Shown here in pieces: positions 2,124 to 25,696 of a stretch of 25,958 bases of DNA. Both the position numbers and the translations under genes were made by a program. Source of the stretch: a virus. Each line of letters begins with the position of its first letter. Position 1 is the first letter of the stretch. The notes beneath the pieces were generated by a model. That model was not told where the DNA came from. It worked only from the letters and a program-made list of their open reading frames with translations, and made no database searches. The stretch is taken from IMG/VR virus record IMGVR_UViG_3300008448_000550, positions 1-25,958 of that record. The stretch is one strand, 5' to 3'.

Positions 2124-2135
2124 GATATTTATAAG
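2124..2135 (+). promoter_or_regulatory. ATATTTAT motif copy 1 (candidate late promoter)
   Basis: The box GATATTTATAAG lies 14 bases (from the end of the 8-base core) before the ATG of the neck gene at 2147, followed by an AGAAAGG ribosome binding site. It is one of nine intergenic copies in this window. The promoter role is inferred from recurrence and position only. Confidence 0.5.
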
Positions 2136-2146
2136 AAAGGCGAAAT

Positions 2147-3313
2147 ATGTCAACTGACATTCCAATTTGGCCAGGTAGTTCTTCATTTTGTCCTGGAGAA
2201 ACGCCGTTCGGCTTTTACGATTACGATTATGAATTTCAAATCGATGCTGATAAAGTAGCCGATTGGTGCGCAAAGCGTTTGGGCTATCCTATCAATGATA
2301 TTGAATTGCAGGATATACAGTTTTATGCTTGTTTTGAAGAAGCTGTAACTGAGTACGGAGCTCAATTAAATGCGTTTAACATTCGTGATAATATGTTAGG
2401 TCTTATCGGTGGTAACACTGGTAGTAATTTAACAGGTAAACAAATCATTCCTAGTTTTGGTGGTATATTTAGTTTAGCATCGGCGTACGGAACAGAAGCT
2501 GGCTCTGGTGGTAACGTTACATATTATACCGGTAGTGTTGCAATGACGCCGGGTAAACAGATATATGATTTAACAGATTCCAATATTGTTAAATTGGAAG
2601 CAGGTAGTCTAGGTTTTGATAATATTGAAATCAAACGTATATATCATGAAGCTCCTCCAGCATTAGTAAGATTCTTTGACCCGTTTATAGGTACTGGTAT
2701 TGGTACACAACAAATGTTAGATTCATTTGGTTTTGGTAGTTATTCGCCAGGTGTATCATTTATGATGATGCCTATATATGCGGATATGCTTCGTTTACAA
2801 GCTATTGAATTTAACGACACGGTACGTCGTTCTGCATATTCATTTGATATTAGTAGAGACCGTTTACGTATATTTCCGATACCAGATGGACAAAATGTTA
2901 CCAAGGTACACTTTGATTATATTCTTAAATCAGAACGTGCTACAGGAGCATCAGCAGTTATAACTGGTACAATATCAGACTTTTCAAATGTACCGTACGA
3001 GAACGTAGTTTATCAGTATATTAATAGTGTCGGAAGGCGATGGATTTACCGTTACACTTTGGCTTTAGCAAAAGAATTGCTAGGTTATGTACGTAGTAAA
3101 TATTCATCATTACCTATACCAAATGCTGAAATAACACTTAACGGTTCTGAATTAGTTGCTAACGGCCAGACTGAAAAGGATGCATTGATAACAGAGTTGC
3201 GCGAGGTATTAGATACAATGTCACGCCAAGCACAATTAGAACGCAAGCAAGCTGAAGCTGATTCGTTAGCTTCACAATTGTCTAAAGTACCAATGAAAAT
3301 ATACATAGGATAA
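2147..3313 (+). CDS. Neck / head-tail connector protein, T4 gp13-like
   Basis: A 388-residue protein, longer than T4 gp13 (about 309). Residues 33-70 carry the most telling stretch: a DADKVADWCAKRLG segment, then a helix with many acidic residues (DIELQDIQFYACFEEAV), the pattern at the front of gp13-type neck proteins. The middle is beta-rich and glycine-rich; the end (about 335-380) is a charged helix that could be a coiled coil. In T4, gp13 and gp14 form the neck that closes the filled head and accepts the tail. Here it is the first of three genes (2147-4690) that look like the gp13-gp14-gp15 set, which is the main support for the call. AAAGG lies seven bases before the ATG. Sequence likeness alone is weak; context raises confidence. 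Confidence 0.6.
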   Translation: MSTDIPIWPGSSSFCPGETPFGFYDYDYEFQIDADKVADWCAKRLGYPINDIELQDIQFYACFEEAVTEYGAQLNAFNIRDNMLGLIGGNTGSNLTGKQIIPSFGGIFSLASAYGTEAGSGGNVTYYTGSVAMTPGKQIYDLTDSNIVKLEAGSLGFDNIEIKRIYHEAPPALVRFFDPFIGTGIGTQQMLDSFGFGSYSPGVSFMMMPIYADMLRLQAIEFNDTVRRSAYSFDISRDRLRIFPIPDGQNVTKVHFDYILKSERATGASAVITGTISDFSNVPYENVVYQYINSVGRRWIYRYTLALAKELLGYVRSKYSSLPIPNAEITLNGSELVANGQTEKDALITELREVLDTMSRQAQLERKQAEADSLASQLSKVPMKIYIG

Positions 3314-3314
3314 T

Positions 3315-3854
3315 ATGGCACTATTTGGCGGTCGACGTGACGTAAGTTTGATAAAGTCGATTAATCGTGAACTAGTTAATCGATATATTGATACAGAGAT
3401 TGTTCTGTACAAACTAAATCTACAGTCGACAAAAACAAACATATATAACGAATCGAACAATAAGTTTTATTATCAGCCAGTACGTTTGCATAGTTTAATC
3501 ACACGTGACGCCAGAACAAGTACATCAGATGATTATGGTATTGATACGGCACGTACAGCACAGTTTGCATTTTTTAAGCCTGAGCTTGCAGAACGCAATG
3601 TTGTGTTAGAAGTTGGCGATGTTATATACCATGATGCTAAGTATTATGAAATTGATAACTTATCTTATGCCCAAGAATACTTTGCCGGTAAGGATGAATT
3701 AACTGATTTGGGATATACACAAAGCGAACGTGGCGGATTTGGTCTAGACATTTCTGTTGTTGTTGAAGCACATATAACACGTATGAATATGATACAAATT
3801 GAACCTGTACGCTCTGGCATTAATAAAACCAATCAAGTACCTAGGAACCTATAA
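3315..3854 (+). CDS. Neck protein, T4 gp14-like
   Basis: A 179-residue protein starting one base after the previous stop. A segment of form FYYQPV near residue 51, a GDVIYHDAKYYEIDNL strand pair near residue 100, and the AQEYFAGKDEL stretch after it resemble the core of T4-like gp14 neck proteins (GDLIYFP...FEI in T4). It is shorter than T4 gp14 (256). The end is rich in beta-type residues. It probably sits with the gp13-like protein at the head-tail joint. The last base of its stop codon is the first base of the next start (TAATG), so translation is likely coupled. The call depends on both the motif and its place between the gp13-like and gp15-like genes. Confidence 0.55.
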   Translation: MALFGGRRDVSLIKSINRELVNRYIDTEIVLYKLNLQSTKTNIYNESNNKFYYQPVRLHSLITRDARTSTSDDYGIDTARTAQFAFFKPELAERNVVLEVGDVIYHDAKYYEIDNLSYAQEYFAGKDELTDLGYTQSERGGFGLDISVVVEAHITRMNMIQIEPVRSGINKTNQVPRNL

Positions 3855-4690
3855 TGGCTAAACCACAATTAAATAAAACATATTCTAGTTTTTCTAAGAA
3901 TCAAGGTATTGAACGCGCGCAAGAAATACGTCGCGATAATGATACTATCAAAACACCTAGTTGTACGATTTTTGATATTGATAATGCAATACTATCATAT
4001 GTAGCCGATGTAATACGTCCGGAGATTGTAGAAAATGAACAAGTTATACCCGTACCTGTAATTTATGCTTCAGGCGAAAAGTGGGCACAAATTAGAGCAA
4101 ACGGCTTTATGTATGATGCCGAGGACCGTATGATGACACCGGTTATAACGCTACGTCGTAATAGTATTACGGAACGTGATACGATGAAAAAGCTTGATGT
4201 TAACTGGAATCCAGAAACGCGCGATGATTATGCTAGAAATACATTAATGTTTGAAAATCGTTTTACAAAAACAAATCGTTACGATCGTTTTTCAGTACTA
4301 CAAGGTACGCGTCCGAGTAGAGAACTTTATGTTTCTAGTATACCTGAGTATGTAGATGTATCGTACGATTTGTTAATATGGACAGAGTATACAGAACAGT
4401 TAAATTCTGTTATTGAGCAGATAATGCCAACGGGTGGATTTGCTTGGGGTACAACTTGGAAGTTCGTTACTAATATACAAGACTATACCTTTGATACAGT
4501 TTCTACGCCAGGAGAAGATCGCGCAGTTAGAGCTACATTGCCGTTAATGACAAAAGGTACTTTACTAATGCCATATGAATTAAAACGTTCTAGTTTGCAA
4601 AAACGTTTTTCTACAAAGCGCATTACATTTGGTAATGAAACAACTTCATTCAATGCAAATACAGATACGCCGCCTCCGGGAGGATTTTAA
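3854..4690 (+). CDS. Tail sheath stabilizer / tail completion protein, T4 gp15-like
   Basis: At 278 residues this is close to T4 gp15 (272). Around residues 165-200 the protein reads as a strand (VDVSYDLLIWTEY) followed by a helix (EQLNSVIEQIMP), the pattern of gp15-like proteins, in which a ring at the top of the tail caps the tube and sheath and contacts the neck. The C-terminus (about 255-278) is low in structure and ends in prolines and glycines. Its start overlaps the previous stop by one base. Gene order neck-neck-terminator-sheath-tube agrees with this role. An unrelated tail terminator cannot be excluded. Confidence 0.6.
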   Translation: MAKPQLNKTYSSFSKNQGIERAQEIRRDNDTIKTPSCTIFDIDNAILSYVADVIRPEIVENEQVIPVPVIYASGEKWAQIRANGFMYDAEDRMMTPVITLRRNSITERDTMKKLDVNWNPETRDDYARNTLMFENRFTKTNRYDRFSVLQGTRPSRELYVSSIPEYVDVSYDLLIWTEYTEQLNSVIEQIMPTGGFAWGTTWKFVTNIQDYTFDTVSTPGEDRAVRATLPLMTKGTLLMPYELKRSSLQKRFSTKRITFGNETTSFNANTDTPPPGGF

Positions 4691-4692
4691 CG

Positions 4693-4704
4693 TATATTTA
4701 TTAA
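4693..4704 (+). promoter_or_regulatory. ATATTTAT motif copy 2 (candidate late promoter)
   Basis: The box TATATTTATTAA starts three bases after the stop of the gp15-like gene; 18 bases separate the core from the ATG at 4720, with AAAGG between. Role inferred from recurrence. Confidence 0.45.
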
Positions 4705-4719
4705 AAAGGTAAAAAGGTT

Positions 4720-4995
4720 ATGAGTCAAGAAATCAAGTTTACTCAAGAAGAGTTAGATCAAATCAAACAAATTCAAGACAAGAATACTGAAATTGTTTTT
4801 ACGTTAGGCGAAACGGAATTAGAAATACGTTTGTTAAAACAACAACTAGAATCTCTAGAGATAGAACGTGAACGTATACATTCATCATTCGCAGATTTGA
4901 GAAAACAAGAACGTAGTATAGTCGAAGAACTTAATAAAAAATACGGAGCCGGTCAGGTAGATTTGCAAAGTGGCATATTTATTCCAACTGTGTAA
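4720..4995 (+). CDS. Small coiled-coil protein, function unknown
   Basis: A 91-residue, highly charged protein. Residues 8-72 are a near-continuous heptad-like helix (many Glu, Leu, Lys, Arg, Gln), followed by a short ending with a KKYGAG and SGIFIP pattern. Similar small proteins with a coiled coil and a YGxG...G-FIP tail occur near the sheath gene in aquatic T4-like phages, but no function is known to me. It has its own motif box and an AAAAAGG ribosome binding site, and stands between the gp15-like and sheath genes. A helper in sheath or tail assembly would fit the place; this is a guess. Confidence 0.7.
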   Translation: MSQEIKFTQEELDQIKQIQDKNTEIVFTLGETELEIRLLKQQLESLEIERERIHSSFADLRKQERSIVEELNKKYGAGQVDLQSGIFIPTV

Positions 4996-5015
4996 AGTGT
5001 TTGGCAAATTGCTCC

Positions 5016-5027
5016 GATATTTATAAG
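5016..5027 (+). promoter_or_regulatory. ATATTTAT motif copy 3 (candidate late promoter of sheath gene)
   Basis: The box GATATTTATAAG lies in the 64-base gap before the sheath gene, with 35 bases between the core and the ATG and an AGGAG ribosome binding site in between. The flanks match copy 1 over twelve bases. Confidence 0.5.
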
Positions 5028-5059
5028 AAACATTTTATTAATAAATTAGGAGTAAACTA

Positions 5060-7210
5060 ATGGCCGAAACAATTGTTTCACCTGGTGTATTTACTAACGA
5101 AGTAGATCAGTCGTTTTTACCGGCTGGCGTTGCTGCTATCGGAGCTGCTATTATCGGTCCCACACAAAAAGGACCTGCAGGTATTCCGATTCGAGTAACT
5201 AGTTATGCTGACTTTTTACAAAAGTTTGGCGGCGCGTTTACAAGTGGTTCGGGTGCATCAGAAAAATCATACAAATATTTAACTAACTATGCTGTACAGG
5301 AATACTTGAAGTACGCCGACACGATGACAGTAGTTAGAATATTAGCTGGTAATTATAGTCCAGCATCATCTAGTATTAATTCATCGGGTGGCGCAGCTAC
5401 ACGCGCTGCTGCTAGTGTTAACTTATCTGCGTTAGGTACTGCAAGTTACAATTTTGGTAATGGATCTGCAGAAACTAACGGTATACGTATTGAAACAGCT
5501 AATGGAGCACTCATCGGAACGTTTATAAGTAGTTCAATAAGCACGTTTTATGGAGCAGCGAATCAAGGTTTATTTACGGGCGGTATTAGTGGATTAGTTA
5601 ATTTAATTAATAATACAGCTGAATTAAGTGCACAAATATCTGCATCTTTTAGTAGTACTACATTACAAATAACATCATCTGTAGCTGGTACGATTGGTAA
5701 CGGTATTAAAATTTTTACCGGTTCATATTATCAACTTTATAGTGATGTGCCAACCGCAGCAGTATTAGGTGCTACATTGAGTGGCGGTACTGATCAAAGT
5801 GTTGCGGTATTTACATTGACAACACTTAGTGACGGTGCTGATCAGAATAGCGAATCTACAGAAGGTACTAACGGAGTACTTCCATCGGGTAGTATCAATA
5901 ATATACGTTGGGAAGTAACATCACGTAACACTACAAAAGGTACGTTTAACTTGATTATACGTCGTGGTGATGATACTAATAATAGAAAGACAATTGTTGA
6001 ACAGTATAATAATTTAACACTCGATCCTAATTCACCTAACTATATTGCTTCAGTGATTGGTGATCAGTATTATACATTAACTGATTCTGGAACATCGGAT
6101 CCGTTCTTACAACTAACTGGTGATTATCCAAATCGTTCTAAGTATGTACGTGTTACGGTTCATAAGAACACTATCAATTATTTAGATAGTAACGGTAATG
6201 TACGTGATAGTAGCTTATCATACTTAATTCCAGCAGTAAGCTCAGGAAGCTTTGGTGGCGGTAGTAATGGTACTGTTGTACATCCAATATTATTTAACGA
6301 AAGTATTGATAATACAAATACCCAAGGATTTAACTTAGCTTCTGGCCAAGTTGGTAGAACAGCGTATATTGACGCAATCCGTGTATTAAAGAATCAGGAT
6401 GAATATGATATTAACTTGTTAGTTCTTCCTGGCGTTGTTGATAACTTTACGAACCACGCCGCTGTATTAACAGAAGCCGTTAATATGGTCGAAAGTCGTG
6501 GTGATTGTTTCTTAGTTATCGACCCGGTAGAGCATGGAGCATCTATTACAGACGCAACTAGTCAAGCCGGAGATCGTGATAGTAATTATGTTGCTGAATA
6601 TTGGCCATGGGTAAAAGTTCCAGATCCAGATCTAGGACGTAACGTATGGGTTCCTGCAAGTACTTTGATTCCGGGTGTTTATGCATTCTCTGATCGTGTT
6701 GCTGCTCCATGGTATGCACCAGCTGGTTTAAACAGAGGTGGTATTGATATCGCAGTTCAAACCGAACGTAAGTTGACCCAAGCTAATCGTGATACACTTT
6801 ATGAAGCTAGTGTGAATCCAATTGCAACTTTCCCTAACAGTGGTGTAGTTGTATATGGTCAAAAGACACTTCAGAAGAAAGCATCCGCATTGGATCGTGT
6901 TAATGTACGTCGTTTGTTAATCGCAGCTAAGAAATTTATTGCATCAACAACCAAGTTCTTAGTATTTGAAAACAATACGGCAGCGACAAGAAATAGATTC
7001 TTAGCTATTACAAACCCATACTTTGAAAACGTACAACAACGTCAAGGTTTATATGCGTTTAAAGTAGTGATGGATGAAACAAATAATACTGCAGATGTAA
7101 TTGACCGTAATGAAATGCGCGGAGCAATTTATTTACAACCTGCTAAATCTGCTGAATTTATTATTATCGACTTTAATATTCTTCCAACGGGTGCTTCATT
7201 CCCTGAATAA
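5060..7210 (+). CDS. gp18: Tail sheath protein
   Basis: The contractile sheath subunit that forms stacked rings around the tail tube and shortens on injection. It is 716 residues, a little longer than T4 gp18 (659). The N-terminus has the signature SPGVFTNEVD (residues 7-16), followed by IGPTQKGP. The first 420 residues are rich in Ser, Thr, Gly and Asn and hold the variable outward-facing domains. From about 430 the conserved core appears: DEYDINLLVLPGV, then the WPWVKVPDP and VWVPAS segments, and near the end a helix-strand region (TLYEASVNPIATFP...VVVYGQKTLQ) that makes the sheath-to-sheath handshake. AGGAG precedes the ATG. It forms a unit with the tube gene that ends in a strong terminator. 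Confidence 0.96.
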   Translation: MAETIVSPGVFTNEVDQSFLPAGVAAIGAAIIGPTQKGPAGIPIRVTSYADFLQKFGGAFTSGSGASEKSYKYLTNYAVQEYLKYADTMTVVRILAGNYSPASSSINSSGGAATRAAASVNLSALGTASYNFGNGSAETNGIRIETANGALIGTFISSSISTFYGAANQGLFTGGISGLVNLINNTAELSAQISASFSSTTLQITSSVAGTIGNGIKIFTGSYYQLYSDVPTAAVLGATLSGGTDQSVAVFTLTTLSDGADQNSESTEGTNGVLPSGSINNIRWEVTSRNTTKGTFNLIIRRGDDTNNRKTIVEQYNNLTLDPNSPNYIASVIGDQYYTLTDSGTSDPFLQLTGDYPNRSKYVRVTVHKNTINYLDSNGNVRDSSLSYLIPAVSSGSFGGGSNGTVVHPILFNESIDNTNTQGFNLASGQVGRTAYIDAIRVLKNQDEYDINLLVLPGVVDNFTNHAAVLTEAVNMVESRGDCFLVIDPVEHGASITDATSQAGDRDSNYVAEYWPWVKVPDPDLGRNVWVPASTLIPGVYAFSDRVAAPWYAPAGLNRGGIDIAVQTERKLTQANRDTLYEASVNPIATFPNSGVVVYGQKTLQKKASALDRVNVRRLLIAAKKFIASTTKFLVFENNTAATRNRFLAITNPYFENVQQRQGLYAFKVVMDETNNTADVIDRNEMRGAIYLQPAKSAEFIIIDFNILPTGASFPE

Positions 7211-7225
7211 GAATTACGGAATAAG

Positions 7226-7237
7226 AATATTTATATA
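7226..7237 (+). promoter_or_regulatory. ATATTTAT motif copy 4 (candidate late promoter of tube gene)
   Basis: The box AATATTTATATA sits between the sheath and tube genes; 25 bases separate the core from the ATG, with a strong AAGGAG site between. It would let the tube gene be transcribed separately from the sheath gene. Confidence 0.5.
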
Positions 7238-7259
7238 AAAGATTTAAGGAGAAAATAAA

Positions 7260-7748
7260 ATGGCAGAATTATTATCACCCAATGAAATATTTTATACGGC
7301 TTTCGAACCTAAACTTTCGATGCGCTTTATAATGTATGTAGAGGGTATTCCATCATATTTAATTAAAGCAGCTTCTCGTCCAAGTATTGATCAAGGTGAA
7401 GTAATTCTAGATCATATTAACGTTGAGCGTAAGCTAAAAGGAAAATCACGTTGGCAAGATGTAACAATTACATTGTATGACCCAGTAGTTCCTTCCGGCG
7501 CGCAAGCTGTAATGGAATGGGTTCGTTTACACCACGAATCAGTAACTGGTCGTGATGGTTATAGTGACTTCTATAAAAAGGATATCACTTTTAACAGTTT
7601 AGGTCCAGTAGGTGATAAAGTAGAAGAATGGACATTGAAAGGAGCTTTCATTAGTTCAGCTACTTTTGGAGATATGGATTGGGCAACTGAAGATCCGGTG
7701 AATATTGAATTAACTATTAAATACGATTACGCAATCTTGCAATTCTAA
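7260..7748 (+). CDS. gp19: Tail tube protein
   Basis: The 162-residue length equals that of T4 gp19 (163). The middle motif pattern is typical: FIMYVEGIPSYLIKAASRPS near residues 23-42, KGKSRWQDVTITLYDPV near 59-76, and the end DMDWATEDPVNIELTIKYDYA. This protein stacks in rings to make the rigid inner tube through which DNA leaves. The best ribosome binding site in the window (AAGGAG, nine bases before the ATG) suits a protein made in more than a hundred copies per virion. The sheath gene lies 49 bases upstream and a rho-independent terminator follows 24 bases after the stop. Confidence 0.96.
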   Translation: MAELLSPNEIFYTAFEPKLSMRFIMYVEGIPSYLIKAASRPSIDQGEVILDHINVERKLKGKSRWQDVTITLYDPVVPSGAQAVMEWVRLHHESVTGRDGYSDFYKKDITFNSLGPVGDKVEEWTLKGAFISSATFGDMDWATEDPVNIELTIKYDYAILQF

Positions 7749-7772
7749 TTCGTATTGAGATACTTTGTAAAG

Positions 7773-7795
7773 ACCCGTTTTCGAACGGGTTTTTT
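7773..7795 (+). terminator. Rho-independent terminator with UUCG tetraloop after the tube gene
   Basis: A perfect 7-bp stem (ACCCGTT / AACGGGT, 7773-7779 with 7784-7790) closes a TTCG loop and is followed by a run of T to 7795. UUCG is the most stable tetraloop known in RNA. It lies 24 bases after the tube stop codon and ends the sheath-tube unit. Confidence 0.93.
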
Positions 7796-7805
7796 ACTGT
7801 TCGTA

Positions 7806-7817
7806 GATATTTATATA
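7806..7817 (+). promoter_or_regulatory. ATATTTAT motif copy 5 (candidate late promoter after the terminator)
   Basis: The box GATATTTATATA restarts just after the terminator and only eight bases separate its core from the ATG at 7823. If it acts as a -10 box, the mRNA would begin at or next to the start codon. No ribosome binding site is visible. Confidence 0.5.
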
Positions 7818-7822
7818 AGATA

Positions 7823-8083
7823 ATGATAGATCCAATAGAACATTACGGCACAAAGATTAACGAATCTATTTCGGCTGCAATTGGTGCGGCTGTAGGAGCA
7901 GTTGTGTTAGGAATTAAAGTTAAGAACATTATCAAAGATATAATGAAACTCGGAAAAGAAGATTCTGAGTTAAAGTCAGCAGCTATAGATTATGTACATC
8001 AGGCACAACGTCTAAAGGATTTAGCTGATAGTTATTGCGAAAGAAATCCAGATGCCCCTGGGTGTAAAGGGCGAAAGAAATAA
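7823..8083 (+). CDS. Small protein with one possible membrane helix, function unknown
   Basis: An 86-residue protein. Residues 16-33 are a small-residue hydrophobic helix (ISAAIGAAVGAVVLGIKV) with GxxxG-like spacing, which could span or pack against a membrane. The rest is a charged helix, ending in a short tail with two cysteines (Cys72 and Cys80) and basic residues. I recognise no family. It lies between the tail tube and the gp26-like gene, right behind a terminator and a motif box with an unusually short distance to the ATG. Length, reading frame and neighbours support a real gene. It might be a structural minor protein or a membrane-acting protein; neither can be shown. Confidence 0.65.
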   Translation: MIDPIEHYGTKINESISAAIGAAVGAVVLGIKVKNIIKDIMKLGKEDSELKSAAIDYVHQAQRLKDLADSYCERNPDAPGCKGRKK

Positions 8084-8118
8084 ATTTACGTTTAAACAAA
8101 AGTTATTAAAGGATTATC

Positions 8119-8982
8119 ATGCCAACGGTTAATGATGAGTACAAAAAGTCTACGGAACAAATGTCTGATGCAACATTAAAAGCACTTGCTATCGAACAAT
8201 ATCAATCACAACAACAAACTTTAGCAAAAAGTACATATACAGGTCCTACGGAAATTGTAGAGTTACCTAGCGAAGGTAAACCATATCCAGCGGGTCATCC
8301 TTTAGCATCGGGTAAGATTGAAATGAAATATATGACTGCTAAAGAAGAAGATATTCTTACTAATCAGAGCTATATTAAGTCTGGTGTTGTATTAGATAAA
8401 TTATTTCAAGCTCTTATCGTAACACCAGTAGATTATAATGATCTTTTGTTAGGTGATAAAAATGCTATAATGGTAGCAGCTCGTGTTTTAGGTTATGGAT
8501 CTAAGTATAAAGCTAAAGTAGCTACACCATCGGGTAATACACAAGAAATTGAAGTTGACTTAACACAACTAGGTAATAAAGAAATTGATTGGTCTTTATT
8601 TACTGAACAAGGCAAGTGTGAATTTGATTTTGAATTGCCAGTAACAAAACGCACTGTAACGGTTAAGCTGTTAACTCAACGTGATAGTAAAAAAATAGAA
8701 GCTGAATTAGCAGGTCTTGCTAAAATTAAACAAGATGCTCAATTAACAACACGTATGAAATATATGATAGTAGCCGTCGACGGTAATCGTGACAGTGTTA
8801 CTACTCGTAAGTTTGTAGATGAAATGTTAGCTATTGAAAGTCGAGCTGTTAGAAACTTCGTAAATACTGTTACGCCTGATATCGAACTTAAAGTAGATTT
8901 GGTCGATGAGGTGACCTCAGAACCCTTTCGCGGTTCATTTACCTTCGGATTGGACGCTTTTTGGCCTGACGCCGGAATATAA
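8119..8982 (+). CDS. T4 gp26-like baseplate protein / probable tail assembly chaperone (short form)
   Basis: A 287-residue protein with the marks of the T4 gp26 (T4_baseplate) family: LPSEGKPYPAGHPLASG near residues 50-66, then MKYMTAKEEDILTNQSYIK, and VDYNDLLLGDKNAIMVAARVLGYG near 105-127. T4 gp26 (208 residues) is a hub assembly factor. Here the gene sits between the tube and tape-measure genes, exactly where simple phages carry a tail assembly chaperone (lambda G, P2 E). A second frame opens across its 3' end and continues to 9172 (separate entry), as in the G/G-T type of gene. AAAGG precedes the ATG. I infer that it coats the tape measure during tail building; the sequence family and its place are seen, the role is not. 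Confidence 0.8.
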   Translation: MPTVNDEYKKSTEQMSDATLKALAIEQYQSQQQTLAKSTYTGPTEIVELPSEGKPYPAGHPLASGKIEMKYMTAKEEDILTNQSYIKSGVVLDKLFQALIVTPVDYNDLLLGDKNAIMVAARVLGYGSKYKAKVATPSGNTQEIEVDLTQLGNKEIDWSLFTEQGKCEFDFELPVTKRTVTVKLLTQRDSKKIEAELAGLAKIKQDAQLTTRMKYMIVAVDGNRDSVTTRKFVDEMLAIESRAVRNFVNTVTPDIELKVDLVDEVTSEPFRGSFTFGLDAFWPDAGI

Positions 8983-9172
8983 GTTAACGATCAATCAAGA
9001 AATCTTCGATCTAGTATTTCACGGCAAGGGTTTTACGTATGAAGACGCGTATAATATGCCGGTTCACCTTAGACACTTCTTTATACGCAAATTACAAAAG
9101 TACTTTGAAGATAAGCGTGTAGCTGAAGAAAAAGCAGCAAAAGAAGCACGTAGTCGTAATCGTAAGAAATAA
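8963..9172 (+). CDS. Frameshift extension of the gp26-like chaperone (gp51-like C-terminal part)
   Basis: Downstream of the gp26-like gene, the +1 frame is open from 8915 (after TGA 8912-8914) to TAA 9170-9172 and reads as well-behaved protein: PEYKLTINQEIFDLVFHGK, then YEDAYNMPVHLRHFFIRKL, then a Lys/Glu/Arg-rich end. There is no ATG, GTG or TTG in this frame before the Met codon at 9056, which would remove the conserved-looking half. A +1 (or -2) shift at the T run 8958-8962 (0-frame GCT TTT TGG) would join Phe281 to 69 further residues and give a 350-residue protein. A CCC-T at 8923-8926 is a second possible site. The reading frame is seen; the shift mechanism is inferred. A sequencing error is possible but would need to produce a sensible stop (TAA 8980) as well. 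Confidence 0.72.
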   Translation, partial: GLTPEYKLTINQEIFDLVFHGKGFTYEDAYNMPVHLRHFFIRKLQKYFEDKRVAEEKAAKEARSRNRKK

Positions 9173-9181
9173 AAGCGTAAC

Positions 9182-9193
9182 GATATTTATTAA
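9182..9193 (+). promoter_or_regulatory. ATATTTAT motif copy 6 (candidate late promoter before the tape-measure unit)
   Basis: The box GATATTTATTAA starts ten bases after the frameshift-frame stop (9172) and its core is 18 bases from the ATG at 9209, with AAAAAGG between. The twelve bases are identical to those of copy 7 before the ferritin gene. Confidence 0.5.
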
Positions 9194-9208
9194 TAAAAAG
9201 GATATCGA

Positions 9209-9460
9209 ATGTCTTTTAATAAACTAGAATCTCGTTTACTTAAGGAAGGTTCATTTTACGAACGTATGTTCGCAGATATCATACAAGCTTTATTTCGTCC
9301 GGCTGCTCGTAAGTTTTTTAAACAAATAGCTAAAGATATAGATACTGATCCAAAAGTAGCTAGTGATTTCCAATCGTTAATTGATGCTAAAAAGGGTTGG
9401 GAACAATGGAAAAAAACAATGGAAAAAGAGTATCCCAATCTTAAAGGTAAGTTAGACTAA
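9209..9460 (+). CDS. Small helical protein before the tape measure, function unknown
   Basis: An 83-residue, strongly basic and acidic, helix-rich protein without cysteine; its most ordered-looking parts are ERMFADIIQALFRPAARKFF (residues 18-37) and a C-terminal amphipathic helix (64-80). A clear AAAAAGG lies eight bases before the ATG and the tape-measure gene starts one base after its stop, so the two are translated together. I know no family for it. A small partner of the tape measure or chaperone would fit the place, but nothing in the sequence proves it. Confidence 0.65.
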   Translation: MSFNKLESRLLKEGSFYERMFADIIQALFRPAARKFFKQIAKDIDTDPKVASDFQSLIDAKKGWEQWKKTMEKEYPNLKGKLD

Positions 9461-9461
9461 T

Positions 9462-14197: not shown

Positions 14198-14215
14198 TTA
14201 TAATAAATTACATGT

Positions 14216-14503: not shown

Positions 14504-14504
14504 T

Positions 14505-16418: not shown

Positions 16419-16420
16419 CA

Positions 16421-16990: not shown

Positions 16991-16993
16991 CAT

Positions 16994-17022
16994 TTGGACT
17001 TTTGAAAAATAGCACTTATAAT
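16994..17022 (+). promoter_or_regulatory. Sigma70-type promoter of the DNA polymerase gene, predicted leaderless
   Basis: TTGGAC (16994-16999), a 17-base spacer and a perfect TATAAT (17017-17022). Only six bases separate TATAAT from the ATG at 17029, so transcription would begin at about the start codon. There is no ribosome binding site. The helicase promoter has the same layout. Confidence 0.8.
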
Positions 17023-17028
17023 TAAGTG

Positions 17029-18369
17029 ATGTTTATTGAATCAGATCAAGATTTGCGGTATGTACGAGATGCATTACAGAGTGGTCCTAGTTTCTGGATT
17101 CCTGTTATTTCTGACCCATTTAAGCATTATACTCAGAATACCATAAGCTTTGTATACATATATAGTATTACAGAAGACACGGATTACATCATTCCGATAC
17201 GTCATATTGATTGTATAAACATTAATATAGAACGTTTAAAGGAGTTGAGTAGTCCACATAGTATCTTTGTATTATCTAAGAAACGATTTCAAAATACATA
17301 TGTCAAACCGTGTTATGACGCCGACCTTTTTGCTTGGTGGCATACCGGTCGTATGTTGCAATTAGATGAAACAAATACACCGGCACATGATATGTGGGGG
17401 AAGTGGTGGTACAATGAAACTAACACAAACGATTGGTTGCCAATAACACGTCATTTGGAACGTTGTCGTGCAATGCGTGATGTATTTATGTACATGTATA
17501 ACAAGTATCCCGTTACCGAAGAGTTTCAAAACTATGAACGTCATATGTTAGACAATTGTCATGCTATTGAAACTAACGGATTGCGTGTTGATGACGTTGT
17601 ATTACAAGAGCATTTCAATCAGCAATCTTCTCGAGGATTTCTGTATACAGAGTATAATCCATATACTAGTACCGGACGTCCTAGTAATAAATTCGGTGGT
17701 ATAAACTTTGCTGCATTGAATAAAGATGACGGCGGCCGTGCTATGATTACAAGTCGATTTAATCGCGGTATGCTAATCGAATGTGACTTCGATGCGTTCC
17801 ATATACGTCTTATTGCTAATTTGATAGGATATACGTTACCAGATGAATCTGTACATACATATTTCGGCCGTCAATACTTTGGTAAGACAGAGTTAACGGA
17901 TGCTGAATACGAACAAAGCAAACAAATGACGTTCCATTTATTATATGGTGGTATTGATGCTGAGTTCGAAAAGATTCCATTCTTTGGTAAGACTAAACGT
18001 TATATTGCAGATTTATGGCGACAATTTCGTAAGGATGGATTTATATTGACTCCTGTATTCAAACGACCAATAACGCGCGATATGATTACGGATCCAAATG
18101 CCGGTAAACTGTTTAACTATCTGTTACAATCATATGAGACGGAACATAACATGGGTGTTATCAATGAAGTAAATACATTGTTAACGGGATATAATAGTAA
18201 GTTGATTCTTTATACATATGACTCATTTCTTATTGATTTTGATATTACAGACGGCAAGCAGTTAATAACAGAAATCAAACATACTATATCTGCAGGTAAT
18301 TTTCCGGTAAAAATAAAGGCTGGCGTCAATTATCATAAAATGCAAGATATGACTAACAGAGTTTCCTAG
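17029..18369 (+). CDS. Reduced family A DNA polymerase, thumb missing and exonuclease degenerate
   Basis: A 446-residue protein using the ATG at 17029; a GTG at 17026 is in frame but overlaps the predicted mRNA start. Polymerase signatures: GRPSN at 216-220; motif A ECDFDAFHIR with Asp253 (E. coli Pol I D705); O-helix KQMTFHLLYG with Lys298, Phe302 and Tyr306 (K758, F762, Y766); motif C YTYDSF with Asp398 (D882). Altered positions: His258 for E710, Tyr294 for R754, Tyr397 and Ser399 for H881 and E883. From NGLRVD to GRPS there are about 28 residues; Pol I has roughly 120, so the thumb is gone. The first 180 residues resemble a proofreading domain with its acidic residues lost. Role inferred: phage genome replication, or a repair or gap-filling enzyme. 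Confidence 0.85.
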   Translation: MFIESDQDLRYVRDALQSGPSFWIPVISDPFKHYTQNTISFVYIYSITEDTDYIIPIRHIDCININIERLKELSSPHSIFVLSKKRFQNTYVKPCYDADLFAWWHTGRMLQLDETNTPAHDMWGKWWYNETNTNDWLPITRHLERCRAMRDVFMYMYNKYPVTEEFQNYERHMLDNCHAIETNGLRVDDVVLQEHFNQQSSRGFLYTEYNPYTSTGRPSNKFGGINFAALNKDDGGRAMITSRFNRGMLIECDFDAFHIRLIANLIGYTLPDESVHTYFGRQYFGKTELTDAEYEQSKQMTFHLLYGGIDAEFEKIPFFGKTKRYIADLWRQFRKDGFILTPVFKRPITRDMITDPNAGKLFNYLLQSYETEHNMGVINEVNTLLTGYNSKLILYTYDSFLIDFDITDGKQLITEIKHTISAGNFPVKIKAGVNYHKMQDMTNRVS

Positions 18370-18380
18370 ATATTTATTAA
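18369..18380 (+). promoter_or_regulatory. ATATTTAT motif copy 7 (candidate promoter of the ferritin gene)
   Basis: The box GATATTTATTAA begins in the last base of the polymerase stop codon, and its core is 16 bases from the ferritin ATG at 18394. It would give the ferritin and following genes a control shared with the structural genes. Confidence 0.5.
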
Positions 18381-18393
18381 TAAAAGAAAACGT

Positions 18394-18942
18394 ATGGCAG
18401 AATTACCAAAAGCTACGGTGCAAACAGTTATATCATCACAAGATAGTGTTATGCTACCAAGAACACTTACGCCGGAAATCGTTGACATATTAAACTCAGC
18501 AATTGCTGAAGAATATACAGCTCATTACTTTTATAGAGGAGCTGCTAACTGGTGTCAAGGTGTCGGCTATACAAAAGCAGCTGAGTTCTATACAAAAGAA
18601 GCAGCAGCTGAGTTAGAACATGCTGAAAAATTACAGAAATATATAGTCGATTGGAATGCAACTCCGTTATTACCAGCTATAAAGTTTAACGGCAACTTTG
18701 CACATTTAATTGACGTTGTTAACAAATCATATGCTATTGAATATCAATTAGGTGATAAGTATATGGCTTGGACACGACAAATGTTTGATACGCATTTAAT
18801 GACATTTAATTTCTTGCAAGGGTTTGTAGATTTACAAAACGATTCAATAGCCGAAATGTCTGACCTGTTAAATGCAGCACAACTAGTTGATGTTTCAAAT
18901 AAATTAGATCTATTACACTATGAAGAAAGATACTTTGGTTAA
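18394..18942 (+). CDS. Ferritin (non-heme type), phage-encoded
   Basis: A 182-residue, four-helix ferritin with about 23 extra residues at the N-terminus compared with E. coli FtnA (165). Against FtnA as I recall it, LNSAIAEEYTAHYFY matches helix A with Glu40 for E17; AAAELEHAEKL gives Glu73 and His76 for E50 and H53; YAIEYQ gives Glu116 for E94; FNFLQGFVDLQ gives Gln148 for Q127. So the core ferroxidase ligands are present. FtnA Glu130 aligns with Ser151, and the third iron site (E49, E126, E129) is not kept; the site resembles animal H-ferritin more. The heme Met of bacterioferritin is absent (Leu74). It should oxidise ferrous iron and store it in a 24-subunit cage. Its 3' end overlaps the next gene by 23 bases. 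Confidence 0.9.
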   Translation: MAELPKATVQTVISSQDSVMLPRTLTPEIVDILNSAIAEEYTAHYFYRGAANWCQGVGYTKAAEFYTKEAAAELEHAEKLQKYIVDWNATPLLPAIKFNGNFAHLIDVVNKSYAIEYQLGDKYMAWTRQMFDTHLMTFNFLQGFVDLQNDSIAEMSDLLNAAQLVDVSNKLDLLHYEERYFG

Positions 18943-20302: not shown

Positions 20303-20304
20303 AT

Positions 20305-20691
20305 GTGAAACCACAATTATTATGCACATTTGCACATCGTAAGGATCTTGATATTATCACAGATTATATCATCACGTCCTATACGATCGTGGAGCGTAGA
20401 TTGTTTGTATTTTCGGATGCAGATGTTCGTAATGATTTATACGTAACGTATAATGTAGATACAGCAGATACAAAAAGAATACCAAATACAATACTAATAC
20501 ATCGCAAGAAAGAAACAAATACAATGTATACCGTTAACGCGCTTAACACAATTATACGTGAAGCTAATAACGGCGTACTAGATAAAACATATGTTATAAA
20601 TTGGTTAACGTACCGTAACAGTTTAGTATTAACTAACGGCGATGGGTTACGTCATATACATTTACAACTATTTAAAAGGATTGATATATAA
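20305..20691 (+). CDS. Conserved-looking hypothetical protein
   Basis: A 128-residue protein starting at GTG 20305; the ATG at 20303 is read in another frame and ends at once, so GTG is the best start, two bases after the previous stop. Without clear motifs, it has a hydrophobic strand-rich first half (RRLFVFSDADVRNDLYVTY) and a helix-rich second half (MYTVNALNTIIREANNG, then KTYVINWLTYRNSLVL). It reads like a small alpha/beta domain. I recall similar short proteins near replication genes of aquatic T4-like phages, none with known function. The stop TAA overlaps the next ATG by one base. Confidence 0.6.
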   Translation: MKPQLLCTFAHRKDLDIITDYIITSYTIVERRLFVFSDADVRNDLYVTYNVDTADTKRIPNTILIHRKKETNTMYTVNALNTIIREANNGVLDKTYVINWLTYRNSLVLTNGDGLRHIHLQLFKRIDI

Positions 20692-21110
20692 TGGCATACA
20701 GAATAGTAGCTAAGAGCCCAGAAAAACTTGATGATATCCTAGCGGATATTAAAGAATGGTTTGCAAACACGAAAGACTATGTTTCAAAGTTCGAAACAGA
20801 AAAACGTAAATTTGCTGATCCAGCAACCAAACAAATCGTTTCAAAAGACATTGATGTTATCTATGTTAAAGACATGGCTACAAAAAAAGAGACTAAGATA
20901 ATGCTTATTCCTCTTTTAAAGCCGGGTGAAATGAAAGTTGAAATGGGCGGCGAAAATGAGCATGTTATGAAAGGTAAGATCAAAAACATGATGAAAGGTC
21001 GTGGTGATTTTAAGACTTATAATAAGGATACACTCCGTAAAATGGAAGCTGTAGAAACATTACGTAACATGGTTCGTGAAGAAATAAAGCGTATCATAAA
21101 GCAAGGTTAA
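20691..21110 (+). CDS. Hypothetical basic protein before the gp32 unit
   Basis: A 139-residue, Lys/Met/Glu-rich protein. A helical start (SPEKLDDILADIKEWFANTK), a beta-type middle (KDIDVIYVKDMATKKETK, then IMLIPLLKPG) and a helical basic end (about 110-138) are visible. No cysteine, membrane segment or known motif. A stop overlapping the terminator (21098-21133) marks it as the last gene of its unit, which begins with the ferritin or polymerase. Its function is unknown. The next gene downstream is single-strand DNA-binding protein, but it lies in a separate unit. Confidence 0.6.
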   Translation: MAYRIVAKSPEKLDDILADIKEWFANTKDYVSKFETEKRKFADPATKQIVSKDIDVIYVKDMATKKETKIMLIPLLKPGEMKVEMGGENEHVMKGKIKNMMKGRGDFKTYNKDTLRKMEAVETLRNMVREEIKRIIKQG

Positions 21111-21133
21111 TCATTCGGTTAGCCTTGCTTTTT
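21098..21133 (+). terminator. Rho-independent terminator overlapping a stop codon
   Basis: A 13-bp stem with one G-T wobble (21098-21110 with 21119-21131) closes an 8-base loop and is followed by T. The left arm includes the last codons and TAA of the 139-residue gene, so the gene and its terminator share DNA. It separates the ferritin/nuclease unit from the gp32 unit. Confidence 0.88.
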
Positions 21134-21134
21134 G

Positions 21135-21146
21135 TATATTTATATA
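21135..21146 (+). promoter_or_regulatory. ATATTTAT motif copy 8 (upstream of gp32 gene)
   Basis: The box TATATTTATATA follows the terminator directly, as copy 5 does after the tube terminator. The next ATG is 121 bases past the core. It could give late transcription of the gp32 unit beside the sigma70-like promoter nearer the gene. Confidence 0.45.
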
Positions 21147-21148
21147 AG

Positions 21149-21165
21149 AATAACAAATAACAATT
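21149..21165 (+). repeat. 17-bp direct repeat, copy A (gp32 control region)
   Basis: AATAACAAATAACAATT, repeated exactly at 21233-21249. The unit also contains an internal AATAACA pair. This copy is upstream of the likely start of transcription. Confidence 0.85.
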
Positions 21166-21188
21166 GAACAAACTTTTTTTACTTTTCC

Positions 21189-21218
21189 TTAGGAATTTAG
21201 AAAGAACTTACTTATACT
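21189..21218 (+). promoter_or_regulatory. Weak sigma70-like promoter for gp32 (TTAGGA-N18-TATACT)
   Basis: A TATACT box (21213-21218) with a poor -35 box (TTAGGA, 21189-21194) at 18 bases. Starting near 21225 the mRNA would have about 40 bases of A/U-rich leader before the ATG at 21265. The -35 match is only three of six, so an activator may be needed. Confidence 0.4.
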
Positions 21219-21232
21219 TATCAAGTAAATTA

Positions 21233-21249
21233 AATAACAAATAACAATT
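21233..21249 (+). repeat. 17-bp direct repeat, copy B (gp32 leader, possible autoregulatory site)
   Basis: The exact second copy of the repeat at 21149-21165. It lies in the likely leader of the gp32 mRNA, directly upstream of the AAAGG ribosome binding site. T4 gp32 represses its own translation by binding an unstructured A/U-rich stretch at this place, so this copy could be the operator. The role is inferred. Confidence 0.6.
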
Positions 21250-21264
21250 AATTAAAGGTTAAAG

Positions 21265-22047
21265 ATGGATTTAGAAGCAATTAAGAGAAAACTTAATCAG
21301 TTACAAAATCAGACAAAACGTCAAGATTTTCTTTGGAAGCCTGAACCAGGCAAACAACAAATCAGAATTGTGCCATATCAGCACAACAAAGACAATCCGT
21401 TCCAGGAATTGTATTTTCATTACGATCTAGGTAAAAAGAATTTCCTATCGCCAATTACTTACGGCAATCCTGATCCAGTAGTTGAATTCGCAGAAAAACT
21501 AAAAAATTCTGGTAATTCAGATGAATGGAAACTAGGTAAGAAGCTAGAGCCGAAGATGCGTTGCTATGTACCGATCATTGTACGTGGTAAAGAATCAGAA
21601 GGTGTTAAGTTTTGGGGCTTTGGTAAAACCGTATACACAGAACTATTAGGTTTTTGTGCAGACCCAGACTATGGTGATATTACAGATCCAATGAATGGTC
21701 GAGACATTGTAGTAGAATTTTCTCCAGCGGAAGGAGCAGGTTCATTCCCTAAAACTGCAATACGTGTTAAGCCAAACACGACACCATTAACGACAGATAG
21801 AAATATTGCTGAGAAAGTTGCACAGCAACAAGCAAATCTATCAGAAGTATTCAAAGAGCCAACTTATGATGAGTTGAAAGAAGCTTTAGAAACTTGGTTG
21901 ACGGGCGATACATCTACATCAGAAGAAGAAACATCAACTGCTAGTGCACCTGCATCTAGTGGTGGGGTAAGGCCAAATGAAAGCTTTATGGACGGTGTTA
22001 ATTCAGTAGATGATGTCGGAGCCGCATTCGATGAATTATTTAACTAA
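21265..22047 (+). CDS. gp32: Single-stranded DNA-binding protein, T4 gp32-like
   Basis: A 260-residue protein (T4 gp32: 301). It starts with the basic LAST-type helix (EAIKRKLNQLQNQTKRQ), then FLWKPEPGKQQIRIVPY (residues 22-38), the usual opening of the OB core, and PFQELYFHYDLGKKNFLSP. The T4 zinc ligands (a His and three Cys) are not visible; the matching region reads SPITYGNPDPV, so the zinc finger is gone. FGFGKTVYTELLGF-like strands (near 118-132) follow. The end is a Ser/Thr/Glu-rich linker and an acidic DDVGAAFDELFN tail, the part that recruits partners. It coats single strands for replication and recombination and works with UvsX and the helicase. AAAGG precedes the ATG; the leader holds a direct repeat. 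Confidence 0.92.
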   Translation: MDLEAIKRKLNQLQNQTKRQDFLWKPEPGKQQIRIVPYQHNKDNPFQELYFHYDLGKKNFLSPITYGNPDPVVEFAEKLKNSGNSDEWKLGKKLEPKMRCYVPIIVRGKESEGVKFWGFGKTVYTELLGFCADPDYGDITDPMNGRDIVVEFSPAEGAGSFPKTAIRVKPNTTPLTTDRNIAEKVAQQQANLSEVFKEPTYDELKEALETWLTGDTSTSEEETSTASAPASSGGVRPNESFMDGVNSVDDVGAAFDELFN

Positions 22048-22066
22048 TCTTTAAAAGGAGTTACAA

Positions 22067-23206: not shown

Positions 23207-24249
23207 ACCCAAAGTATTTAGAACTATTTAAACAAGTTACATCAGAACATGAACAAGCTCAAAGCGAAACAGCTGAGAGTAGAATTCTTGTTATAGATGG
23301 ACTAAATACATTTATTCGCGTCTTTTCAGCAGTACCTGCTTTAAATGACGACGGTGAACATATCGGCGGTGTAACGGGCTTTTTAAGGTCCGTTGCATCT
23401 GTCGTTCGCCAACTGAAGCCAACGCGTTGTATCATTGTATTTGATGGTAAAGGCGGTTCGGCTAAACGTAAAAAAATGTATTCTGGTTATAAAAGTAACC
23501 GAGCTGTAAAAACGGCATTTAATCGCTATCAGGAATTTGCTAATCTCGAAGATGAATCAGCATCGATGAAACGACAATTTGGTCGTGTAATTGAATATCT
23601 AGGTTTTCTTCCAGTAACTACTATAGCAATTGATAATGTTGAAGCAGATGATATCATTGCGTATATTGCTAATGAAGTATATACTGATGATAAACATAAA
23701 GTTACGATTGTATCTACAGACCGAGATTTTTTACAATTAGTAAATAATCGTATCAGTGTTTGGAGTCCAGTTAAAAAGATATTGTACACTCCAGAGGTGC
23801 TACAACAAGAAATTGGTTTACCGGCACATAACTATTTAATGTATCGCGCAATAACAGGTGATAAGTCTGATAATATTCCAGGCCTTAAGGGCGTTGGATT
23901 AAAAACACTTATCAAACATTTTCCAATTCTTCAGGAACAACGTGAAGTTGGTATTGATGAATTAATGACATATGCCGATACAGTACAAAAGAAACATAAC
24001 GTTCATGAGTCGCTTTTAGCTAATCGTGAACAATTGGTCATGAATCATGAACTAATGCAACTTAAACAAGTTGATATTGCAGGTAATGCTAAACTATTAG
24101 CATTGAATTTAGTCCGAGAACCAGTACGTAGAACAAATGTGTATGAGTTCAAAAAGATGTTTATGTTAGATAAGATGTATACGACAATTAAAGACGTTGA
24201 TTCTTGGCTAGCATCTTTTAGTACACTAAATGCTCATACAAGCATTTGA
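23203..24249 (+). CDS. 5'-3' exonuclease (FEN / Pol I N-terminal type)
   Basis: A 348-residue nuclease of the flap endonuclease family, to which T4 RNase H belongs. Acidic metal ligands appear in order: IDGLN (Asp32), VFDGKG (Asp81), EADD (Glu147, Asp149, Asp150), STDRD (Asp173, Asp175) and GDKSDNIPG (Asp220, Asp223), followed by the helix-hairpin-helix IPGLKGVGLKTL that grips duplex DNA. A YSGYKSNR stretch near 93-100 supplies conserved basic residues. It should remove RNA primers and 5' flaps on the lagging strand. The extra 25 residues at the start and 100 at the end are helical and unrecognised. The ATG shares bases with the uvsX stop. The 3' end carries the -35 box of the helicase promoter. 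Confidence 0.9.
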   Translation: MNPKYLELFKQVTSEHEQAQSETAESRILVIDGLNTFIRVFSAVPALNDDGEHIGGVTGFLRSVASVVRQLKPTRCIIVFDGKGGSAKRKKMYSGYKSNRAVKTAFNRYQEFANLEDESASMKRQFGRVIEYLGFLPVTTIAIDNVEADDIIAYIANEVYTDDKHKVTIVSTDRDFLQLVNNRISVWSPVKKILYTPEVLQQEIGLPAHNYLMYRAITGDKSDNIPGLKGVGLKTLIKHFPILQEQREVGIDELMTYADTVQKKHNVHESLLANREQLVMNHELMQLKQVDIAGNAKLLALNLVREPVRRTNVYEFKKMFMLDKMYTTIKDVDSWLASFSTLNAHTSI

Positions 24250-24274
24250 TTTTTTCAGAAATTGTTAATATAAT
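24246..24274 (+). promoter_or_regulatory. Sigma70-type promoter of the helicase gene, predicted leaderless
   Basis: TTGATT (24246-24251), a 17-base spacer and a perfect TATAAT (24269-24274), then six bases to the ATG at 24281. The layout equals that of the polymerase promoter. The -35 box overlaps the exonuclease stop TGA. No ribosome binding site is visible. Confidence 0.78.
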
Positions 24275-24280
24275 AATTGC

Positions 24281-25636
24281 ATGACAGACCGTTTATCAAG
24301 CTATGGATATGCCTTTCAAATTAAAGTCATTACGGCTTTGATGACCGATAAAGGCTTTTTACAACAGATAGCAGACATACTATCTCCAAAATATTTTGAA
24401 AGTGAAGCTAATGAATGGATTGTAGATACTTCTTTAGAGTACTTTAAACAATACAAGACATCGCCTACTTTAGAAGTAATGAAAGTTAAACTTCAAGAAG
24501 TAGATAATGATGTATTAGTAACACAGATTAAAGAACATTTAAAAGATGCTTGGAAATATACAGAAGCATCAGACTTAGATTTTATAAAACAGCAAGCTTT
24601 AGACTTCTGTAAGAATCAAGAAATCAAAAAAGCAATTATTGCATCAGTTGATTTGCTTAAAACTGGTCGTTACGATGACATTAAAGCAAAAATAGATGCA
24701 GCTTTAAAGTCCGGCGGTGATAAAGATATAGGTCATGACTACATGACTAGTATCGATGAACGTTACGCGGAGTCAGTACGCGATACACGAGAAACGCCAT
24801 GGGACATTATCAATGAGTTAACATCGGGTGGTTTAGGTAAAGGTGAGTTAGGAGTATTCGTAGCTCCAGCTGGTATTGGTAAGTCATGGGGTCTTGTAAA
24901 TATAGGAGCACATGCTCTTAAGAAAGGACTCAATGTTATTTACTATACTCTGGAATTGAATGGAGCATATGTCGGCTTACGCTTCGATAGTGTTATAACT
25001 GGTATAGCAAATCAAAACTTAAAACATTACCAAGATCAAGTTAAGGAAGAGTTAGCAAAACTAACTGGTAACCTAATCATTAAGTACTACCCAACTAAGA
25101 CATGTTCTGTAATGGGCTTGAGAGCTCATGTAGAAAAATGCATAATGCAAGGTATTACTCCAGATGTTATTATTGTTGACTATGCTGACTTGTTACGAGG
25201 ACATGGACAAGAGAAACGTCATGAACTAGAAGGTATATATGAAGACCTTCGTGGTATGGCAGGTGAATATGGAGTGCCAATTTGGACAGCATCTCAAGCA
25301 AACCGATCGGCACTTGAAGAAGATGTTATTGGAGCAGAGAAGATTGCTGAATCATATGGTAAAGTGATGGTTGCTGACTTCGTAATATCACTATCTCGTA
25401 AAGTAACAGATAAATTAGCTGGTACAGGTCGTTGGCACGTAATTAAGAATCGTTTCGGACCTGACGGTATTACATTGCCTAGTAAGATGAATATGTCTAA
25501 TGGACAGATTAACATATACGCAGAGACATCGGTGCAAGGCAAGGATACTAAAAAGCAAATGGAAAATGGAAATGAACTAGCACGTAAGATGATAGCTCAA
25601 AAATACAAAGAAATTCAAACAGATGACTTTGGGTAA
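24281..25636 (+). CDS. gp41: Replicative DNA helicase, T4 gp41-like (DnaB family)
   Basis: A 451-residue protein (T4 gp41: 475). Residues 1-140 form the helical N-terminal collar (FLQQIADILSPKYFESEANEW...). RecA-core motifs are clear: Walker A APAGIGKS (195-202), Glu225 in YYTLELN, Walker B VIIVDYADLL with Asp300, and motif H3 TASQANRSA with Gln339; an arginine-finger-like KNRFGPDG follows in the C-terminal part. Hexamers move along the lagging-strand template ahead of the polymerase. The start has its own promoter and a predicted leaderless mRNA. The C-terminus is basic and polar. A gp59-like loader or a primase is not in this window; no primase domain is fused to it. Confidence 0.93.
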   Translation: MTDRLSSYGYAFQIKVITALMTDKGFLQQIADILSPKYFESEANEWIVDTSLEYFKQYKTSPTLEVMKVKLQEVDNDVLVTQIKEHLKDAWKYTEASDLDFIKQQALDFCKNQEIKKAIIASVDLLKTGRYDDIKAKIDAALKSGGDKDIGHDYMTSIDERYAESVRDTRETPWDIINELTSGGLGKGELGVFVAPAGIGKSWGLVNIGAHALKKGLNVIYYTLELNGAYVGLRFDSVITGIANQNLKHYQDQVKEELAKLTGNLIIKYYPTKTCSVMGLRAHVEKCIMQGITPDVIIVDYADLLRGHGQEKRHELEGIYEDLRGMAGEYGVPIWTASQANRSALEEDVIGAEKIAESYGKVMVADFVISLSRKVTDKLAGTGRWHVIKNRFGPDGITLPSKMNMSNGQINIYAETSVQGKDTKKQMENGNELARKMIAQKYKEIQTDDFG

Positions 25637-25684
25637 AAACTAAATGTTTTCGTATAAAAATCGTTATGCTCGAATACCTCGACG

Positions 25685-25696
25685 TATATTTATATG
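25685..25696 (+). promoter_or_regulatory. ATATTTAT motif copy 9 (before the downstream terminator)
   Basis: The box TATATTTATATG lies 48 bases after the helicase stop. A terminator follows only 14 bases later, so a + strand transcript from here would stop at once. This copy is the least consistent with a simple late-promoter role. Confidence 0.35.

Follow-up and report, generated by a model that had tools for sequence, protein, structure and literature searches.

A recurrent AT-only box between the genes of a T4-related virus as a candidate late-type promoter, with a candidate sigma factor in its relatives

If a short word recurs before gene after gene of a phage, then it may mark a promoter, and the direction in which it is read and the protein that reads it become the questions of interest. 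Such a word, the 8-base core ATATTTAT, was reported from a 26-kb virus record (IMG/VR record IMGVR_UViG_3300008448_000550, positions 1 to 25,958; the whole stretch is referred to below as the window). All genes of the window lie on the + strand, and those for sheath, tube, neck and replication are those of a phage distantly related to T4. Gene calls were mechanical (longest open reading frames), and the gaps between genes make up 3.7% of the window. The initial annotation had proposed the word as a new late promoter or the mirror image of one, with an RNA-level signal as the alternative. The analyses described here suggest that the word is probably a late-type promoter which is built as in T4 with an altered box, and that a gp55-like but strongly diverged sigma factor of the phage probably reads it.

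The box in the window and in related phages

The core occurs ten times in the window, always on the + strand and never on the − strand; nine copies lie in gaps and one in coding sequence, each exactly where it was first reported. The nine gap copies compare with 0.26 expected, the maximum in 2,000 dinucleotide shuffles was four, and the reverse complement had no gap copies. The proposed enrichment in gaps thus holds against shuffled sequence. When the whole window was shuffled and both strands were pooled, enrichment was only mild (10 versus 5.7); pooling strands and shuffling the whole window understates the effect, and the gap-restricted count is the proper test. An extended form, ATATTTATNNN[AT][AG]A, is present eight times, all on the + strand, and accounts for eight of the nine gap copies. 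The copies and the hairpins beside them are as follows.

2125..2138, + strand: box ATATTTATAAGAAA, before the neck gene 2147-3313; extended motif present; box end to ATG 14 bases
4694..4707, + strand: box ATATTTATTAAAAA, before the small gene 4720-4995; extended motif present; 18 bases to ATG
4975..4982, + strand: core copy in coding sequence, within gene 4720-4995; extended motif absent
5017..5030, + strand: box ATATTTATAAGAAA, before the tail sheath gene 5060-7210; extended motif present; 35 bases to ATG
7227..7240, + strand: box ATATTTATATAAAA, before the tail tube gene 7260-7748; extended motif present; 25 bases to ATG
7774..7795, + strand: terminator-like hairpin CCCGTTTTCGAACGGG with a T run, between the tube gene and the box at 7807; read directly from the sequence and absent from the tool-made list
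7807..7820, + strand: box ATATTTATATAAGA, just 3' of the hairpin 7774..7795 and before gene 7823-8083; relaxed extended motif (AGA for AAA); 8 bases to ATG
9183..9196, + strand: box ATATTTATTAATAA, before gene 9209-9460, upstream of the tape-measure gene; relaxed extended motif (TAA); 18 bases to ATG
18370..18383, + strand: box ATATTTATTAATAA, abutting the stop codon at 18369, before gene 18394-18942 (presumably ferritin-like); relaxed extended motif (TAA); 16 bases to ATG
21098..21131, + strand: strong intrinsic-terminator-like hairpin of 15 pairs, immediately 5' of the box at 21136
21136..21149, + strand: box ATATTTATATAAGA, 121 bases before the single-strand-binding protein gene 21265-22047; relaxed extended motif (AGA)
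25686..25693, + strand: weak box copy, core only; extended motif absent; 76 bases to the next long gene

Seven of the copies had been placed 8-35 bases before a start codon, in agreement with the measured distances (14, 18, 35, 25, 8, 18 and 16 bases). The weakest of the nine gap copies is that at 25686, which has no A run 3' of its core, and the coding copy at 4975 is probably a chance occurrence. No box is found in the window gaps 5' of the polymerase-like, recombinase and helicase genes; this absence is compatible with a late class, though no proof of one. Scans of the window for sigma-70-like promoters gave matches at chance level.

Two boxes have surroundings of their own. Unlike the other boxes, the one at 21136 would give its gene, that of the single-strand-binding protein, a leader of about 120 bases (21136-21264); the leader of T4 gp32 is a known autoregulation site. 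Within 20 bases 3' of the weakest box lies a perfect hairpin (25712-25735) with a T run to 25740, so that the box at 25686 would yield a very short RNA; alternatively, the hairpin (25712-25740) may end the helicase transcript.

Comparison with related phages extends these observations. Eighty contigs with a related tail sheath were fetched, and 8-mers were counted over the 81 contigs (809 kb), with expectations taken from a second-order Markov model. The most over-represented gap 8-mer was again ATATTTAT, with 384 copies versus 22 expected; 4 copies were reversed in gaps and 41 lay in coding sequence. Distinct gaps of the relatives carried the motif in 282 of 341 cases, 279 of them with the exact core. 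The flanks favour C or G directly 5' of the box, A or T directly 3' of it, and A at each of the positions +11, +12 and +13, giving the form S-ATATTTAT-W-NN-AAA, and at 90% of sites the box ends 12-36 bases before a start codon. Because many of these sites are orthologous, the site logo was redone on different gaps of few genomes. Both the core and the A run (+11 to +13) persisted in the window-clade sample of 65 sites (91-95%), with an AT bias around the A run; there was no -35 or -33 element, and nothing upstream of -1 rose above 0.25 bit.

The box also follows the genes. In a 127-kb contig with its genes on the − strand (G001), all 21 extended matches are on the − strand as well, and contigs with all genes on the − strand have the box on that strand. 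Box-bearing genes include structural genes and others. In the Flavobacterium phage immuto, C frequently replaces the first A of the box (CTATTTATA), and the A run is less pronounced. The box is common to phages of Flavobacterium and Microcystis hosts, and a single box across hosts so unlike argues for a reader encoded by the phage. No description of it was found in the papers searched, which do not cover Mel-JY01, a Microcystis phage. Gap enrichment, strand bias, position and relatives together give good support to the proposal of a new late promoter.

Direction of the box and competing readings

Reverse-complementing the T4 late box TATAAATA gives the core TATTTATA, a property of the word as such, and a mirror-image promoter had been considered for the window. 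On the coding strand, however, the two words are identical at 6 of 8 positions and differ in the two middle bases. An identical pipeline returned TATAAATA in the forward direction from the gp55 phages T4 and cyanophage S-RIM8, and TATTTATA in the forward direction from the window, G001, G004 (a contig with a window-type sheath) and immuto. Forward TATAAATA is absent from the window gaps, and forward TATTTATA is absent from the S-RIM8 gaps. The behaviour of the box is that of a T4 late box in forward orientation with its central bases changed, and not that of a mirror image; of the original proposal, the promoter stands and the mirror does not. The + direction of the sites follows from the 3' A run and the tight distance to start codons, and a reverse promoter would have no minus-strand genes to drive.

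In the preferred reading, the box would be the single -10-like element of a + strand late-type promoter, with the core TATTTATA and the extended form given above for the window clade. A phage-encoded, strongly diverged sigma factor related to gp55 would bring the host RNA polymerase to the box, and its region 2 would read the melted non-template strand there. Initiation would fall roughly one helical turn 3' of the box, on the A run or immediately past it, without use of a -35 element, and the transcript would enter the gene a few tens of bases on. Such transcription would be late in infection.

An AU-rich 5' untranslated element, serving for instance nuclease cleavage or translation of transcripts begun elsewhere, is an unlikely explanation, and a purely RNA-level signal has become less likely than when it was first suggested. 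The box does consist of A/U alone and fall within what is presumably the leader of many genes, and in T4, too, primer-extension ends fail to separate start from processing (PMC2988020). However, the distance to the start codon spreads over the 12-36 bases noted above, and a purine-rich AAAGAGGA/AGGAG word is separately enriched in the gaps of the relatives. Moreover, the boxes at 7807 and 21136 stand directly 3' of terminator-like hairpins, where a promoter is a natural need, and the word differs by two bases from a known promoter and has a sigma candidate alongside.

It is improbable that the box is the -10 (or -7) element of a host housekeeping sigma factor in early or constitutive use. These phages need early promoters as well, and AT-rich hexamers resemble -10 elements. 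Against this, the core is invariant where host promoters vary, it lacks a -35 or -33 partner, and it is the same in phages of Flavobacterium and Microcystis, hosts with different promoter consensus sequences. The -7 consensus of the Bacteroidota is TAnnTTTG, and the box departs from it by always having A in place of the G. That the polymerase-like, recombinase and helicase genes of the window have no box in the gaps 5' of them points the same way.

That a T4-type promoter TATAAATA is read backward, producing antisense RNA, is very improbable: the minus strand reads TATAAATA at many sites, but the window has neither minus-strand genes nor forward TATAAATA in its gaps, the downstream start codon lies at a more constant distance than the upstream stop codon, and in G001 the box flips along with the genes. 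Least probable of all is the promoter of a phage-encoded RNA polymerase, for which some large phages with polymerases of their own and short AT-rich promoters provide a precedent, since no beta-prime-type polymerase was found in immuto, the Microcystis phage Mel-JY01 or four long contigs (14 of 14 controls positive), while an empty search for single-subunit polymerases was uninformative, its controls being equally without a match.

A candidate sigma factor

The preferred reading, a late-type promoter served by a gp55-related protein, predicts a sigma factor in these phages, and a look for one had been recommended in the initial annotation; T4 late promoters depend on gp55. Ordinary gp55, late-sigma and sigma-region-2 profiles had no match in the whole genomes of G001, immuto and Mel-JY01. 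A first match of a gp55 profile in Mel-JY01 (135140-135874) was dropped, as it had no relatives. When gp55 was compared profile to profile with the protein families encoded by immuto and G001, the top rank (25% probability, against 4.6% for the next family) went to immuto gene 153 together with the homologue in Mel-JY01. With more family members, the probability rose to 52% and finally to 87-89% (E 2-4e-6, 100-133 columns). The family consists of proteins of 230-270 amino acids (aa), of which 32 were compared, and 8 gp55s were used in the profile-profile comparison. Pfam Sigma70_r2 (PF04542) matched 5 of the 32 members below its own cut-off (best 0.0013), and the late sigma family PHROG 234 weakly matched 4 (best 0.0045) and had no match when whole genomes were searched. 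A search of PDB sequences with the candidate profile gave no match.

Two AlphaFold2 models, made from different members, had predicted local distance difference test (pLDDT) scores of 75 and 86, and their structural matches were nearly only sigma factors. The models aligned with region 2 of SigB (Z 10.2, 2.4 Å over 90 residues) and with region 2 of sigmaE bound to its -10 strand (Z 8.2, 2.6 Å over 92 residues). The predicted sigma region 2 fold spans residues 7-104 in one member (L183) and 33-135 in another (L202). Taken together, sequence profiles and models support the identification of one conserved, unannotated protein of these phages as a sigma factor, an assignment whose weight rests on the agreement among several lines.

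The candidate sigma and the box occur in the same genomes. Sheath, box and sigma are found together in four single contigs (G011, G012, G013 and G014) and in immuto and Mel-JY01. Among 50,697 phage records, 6 encode the candidate, always unannotated or hypothetical, as do hundreds of environmental contigs. A scan with the Mel-JY01 sigma alone gave no matches, and a genome-collection scan with the recombinase as query had returned a single irrelevant archaeal match. Near the window's clade, the sigma was found by neighbourhood, via the baseplate wedge gene of G004: in contigs with a wedge protein 62-72% identical to that of G004, the sigma gene lies about 2-4 kb upstream of the wedge gene. The candidate gene is at 78174-78872 in immuto and, in a contig near the window's clade (L202), at 1572-2321. 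In 17 of 19 contigs the sigma gene has no box of its own and the next gap often has one, an arrangement that suits a sigma produced before it is put to use.

Several observations weigh against this reading. The window is a fragment too short to include the sigma gene, so that the assignment rests on its relatives. The Foldseek E-values of the models are not significant alone, and Z scores of 8-10 are modest for helical proteins. In Mel-JY01 the box is weak (TATTTAT in gaps, 29 forward and 16 reverse) and the A run is absent. A gp45-like clamp is present in the window-clade contigs G001 (E 1.3e-9) and G002 (E 3.7e-12) but was not detected in immuto, Mel-JY01 and others searched, and coupling to replication therefore cannot be assumed. 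Finally, the 484-kb uncultured phage LR756508.1 has a related sigma without box enrichment in the two stretches examined (90 kb), which yielded no replacement motif.

In the gp55 open complex, A(-12) of the non-template strand is stacked on Y97, N13 and H95 contact A(-9), and T99 forms a bond with A(-8) (PMC7892883). Placed in the T4 register, should that apply, TATTTATA still has A at -12 and -8, and -10 and -9 are changed to T. The position of Y97 is Y in 32 of 32 candidate sigmas, and that of N13 is T in 32 of 32 versus N in 7 of 8 gp55s. At the T99 position the candidates have S, G, T, Q or N. The H95 position is F in most candidates, which alone explains nothing because cyanophage gp55s likewise have F there. 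The relative in LR756508.1 (100321-100977, L281) has D at the N13 position in place of the otherwise invariant T. These residue and box changes are correlations on a distant alignment, with LR756508 as a single case.

The C-terminal half of the candidate, a helical region of about 100 residues, has no counterpart in gp55 and no sequence similarity to T4 gp33 or to sigmaE region 4. Whole-length structural alignments, with root-mean-square deviations of 12-24 Å owing to domain orientation, settle nothing about it. A 2010 review raised the question of why a fused late sigma had not been found (PMC2988020). The C-terminal domain could stand for sigma region 4 or for gp33, and the protein is a candidate for such a fusion. 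A bolder and rather doubtful extension is that this is a one-piece late sigma, with a gp55-like region 2 and a C-terminal domain doing the work of region 4 or gp33, so that the gp55/gp33 split of T4 would not be universal, and that the box centre went from AA to TT along with the change at the residue aligned with gp55 N13.

Other window features and comparison with known systems

Three further features of the window were observed. The 287-aa gene 8119-8982, between the tube and tape-measure genes, is overlapped in the +1 frame by a conserved frame (DWTLFGLTPEYKL...RNRKK; region 8119-9173) that has no obvious start codon, the overlap lying near 8940-8985 at GACGCTTTTTGGCC; this frame may be made by a programmed frameshift, as often in tail-assembly chaperones. 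The 447-aa protein 17026-18369 matches only the C-terminal part of the family A DNA polymerase profile, and a family B polymerase is also present in G001 and Mel-JY01. The 128-aa protein 20305-20691, with no function assigned, is conserved in all compared genomes, near the genes for the single-strand-binding protein and the recombinase.

Overall, the recurrence of the box first noticed in the window is confirmed, and the interpretation initially given to it is supported in part. The results propose a late-transcription code for a broad, mostly uncultured phage group that seems to lack both the T4 late box and gp55, and they give a likely function to a protein so far hypothetical or unannotated. 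They also make a co-change of sigma and promoter testable, as one base read by gp55 and one residue with which gp55 reads differ here.

T4 late promoters, served by gp55, the coactivator gp33 and the sliding clamp gp45, consist of an 8-bp TATA box with AT-rich DNA downstream and no -35 element (PMC2988020). The promoters proposed here are alike in having a single 8-bp, AT-only, -10-like element with AT-rich DNA downstream and no -35 element, in lying shortly before structural genes, and in the candidate phage sigma, whose region 2 aligns with gp55. They differ in the box itself, which in T4 is TATAAATA at -13 to -6 and here is TATTTATA. The candidate sigma, in turn, is too diverged for ordinary profiles and has a C-terminal domain absent from gp55; no gp33 was identified, and the clamp was found in part of the group only. 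Variant late boxes have been described in silico in other gp55 phages: those of cyanophage S-PM2 and its relatives are close to TATAAATA, and that of Aeromonas phage Aeh1 has a/gC for TA at -13/-12. The cyanophage and Aeromonas boxes vary at -13/-12, whereas the change here is central, at -10/-9. Region 2 of SigB, sigmaE, sigmaS and SigW has the same predicted fold as the candidate, at a very low sequence identity of about 9-17%. Also among the closest known systems are two isolates with the same sheath, box and candidate sigma, Flavobacterium phage immuto (MW353175; host Flavobacterium sp. LMO8) and Microcystis phage Mel-JY01 (PP395634); the sigma is annotated as hypothetical in both, and these phages bring a test within laboratory reach.

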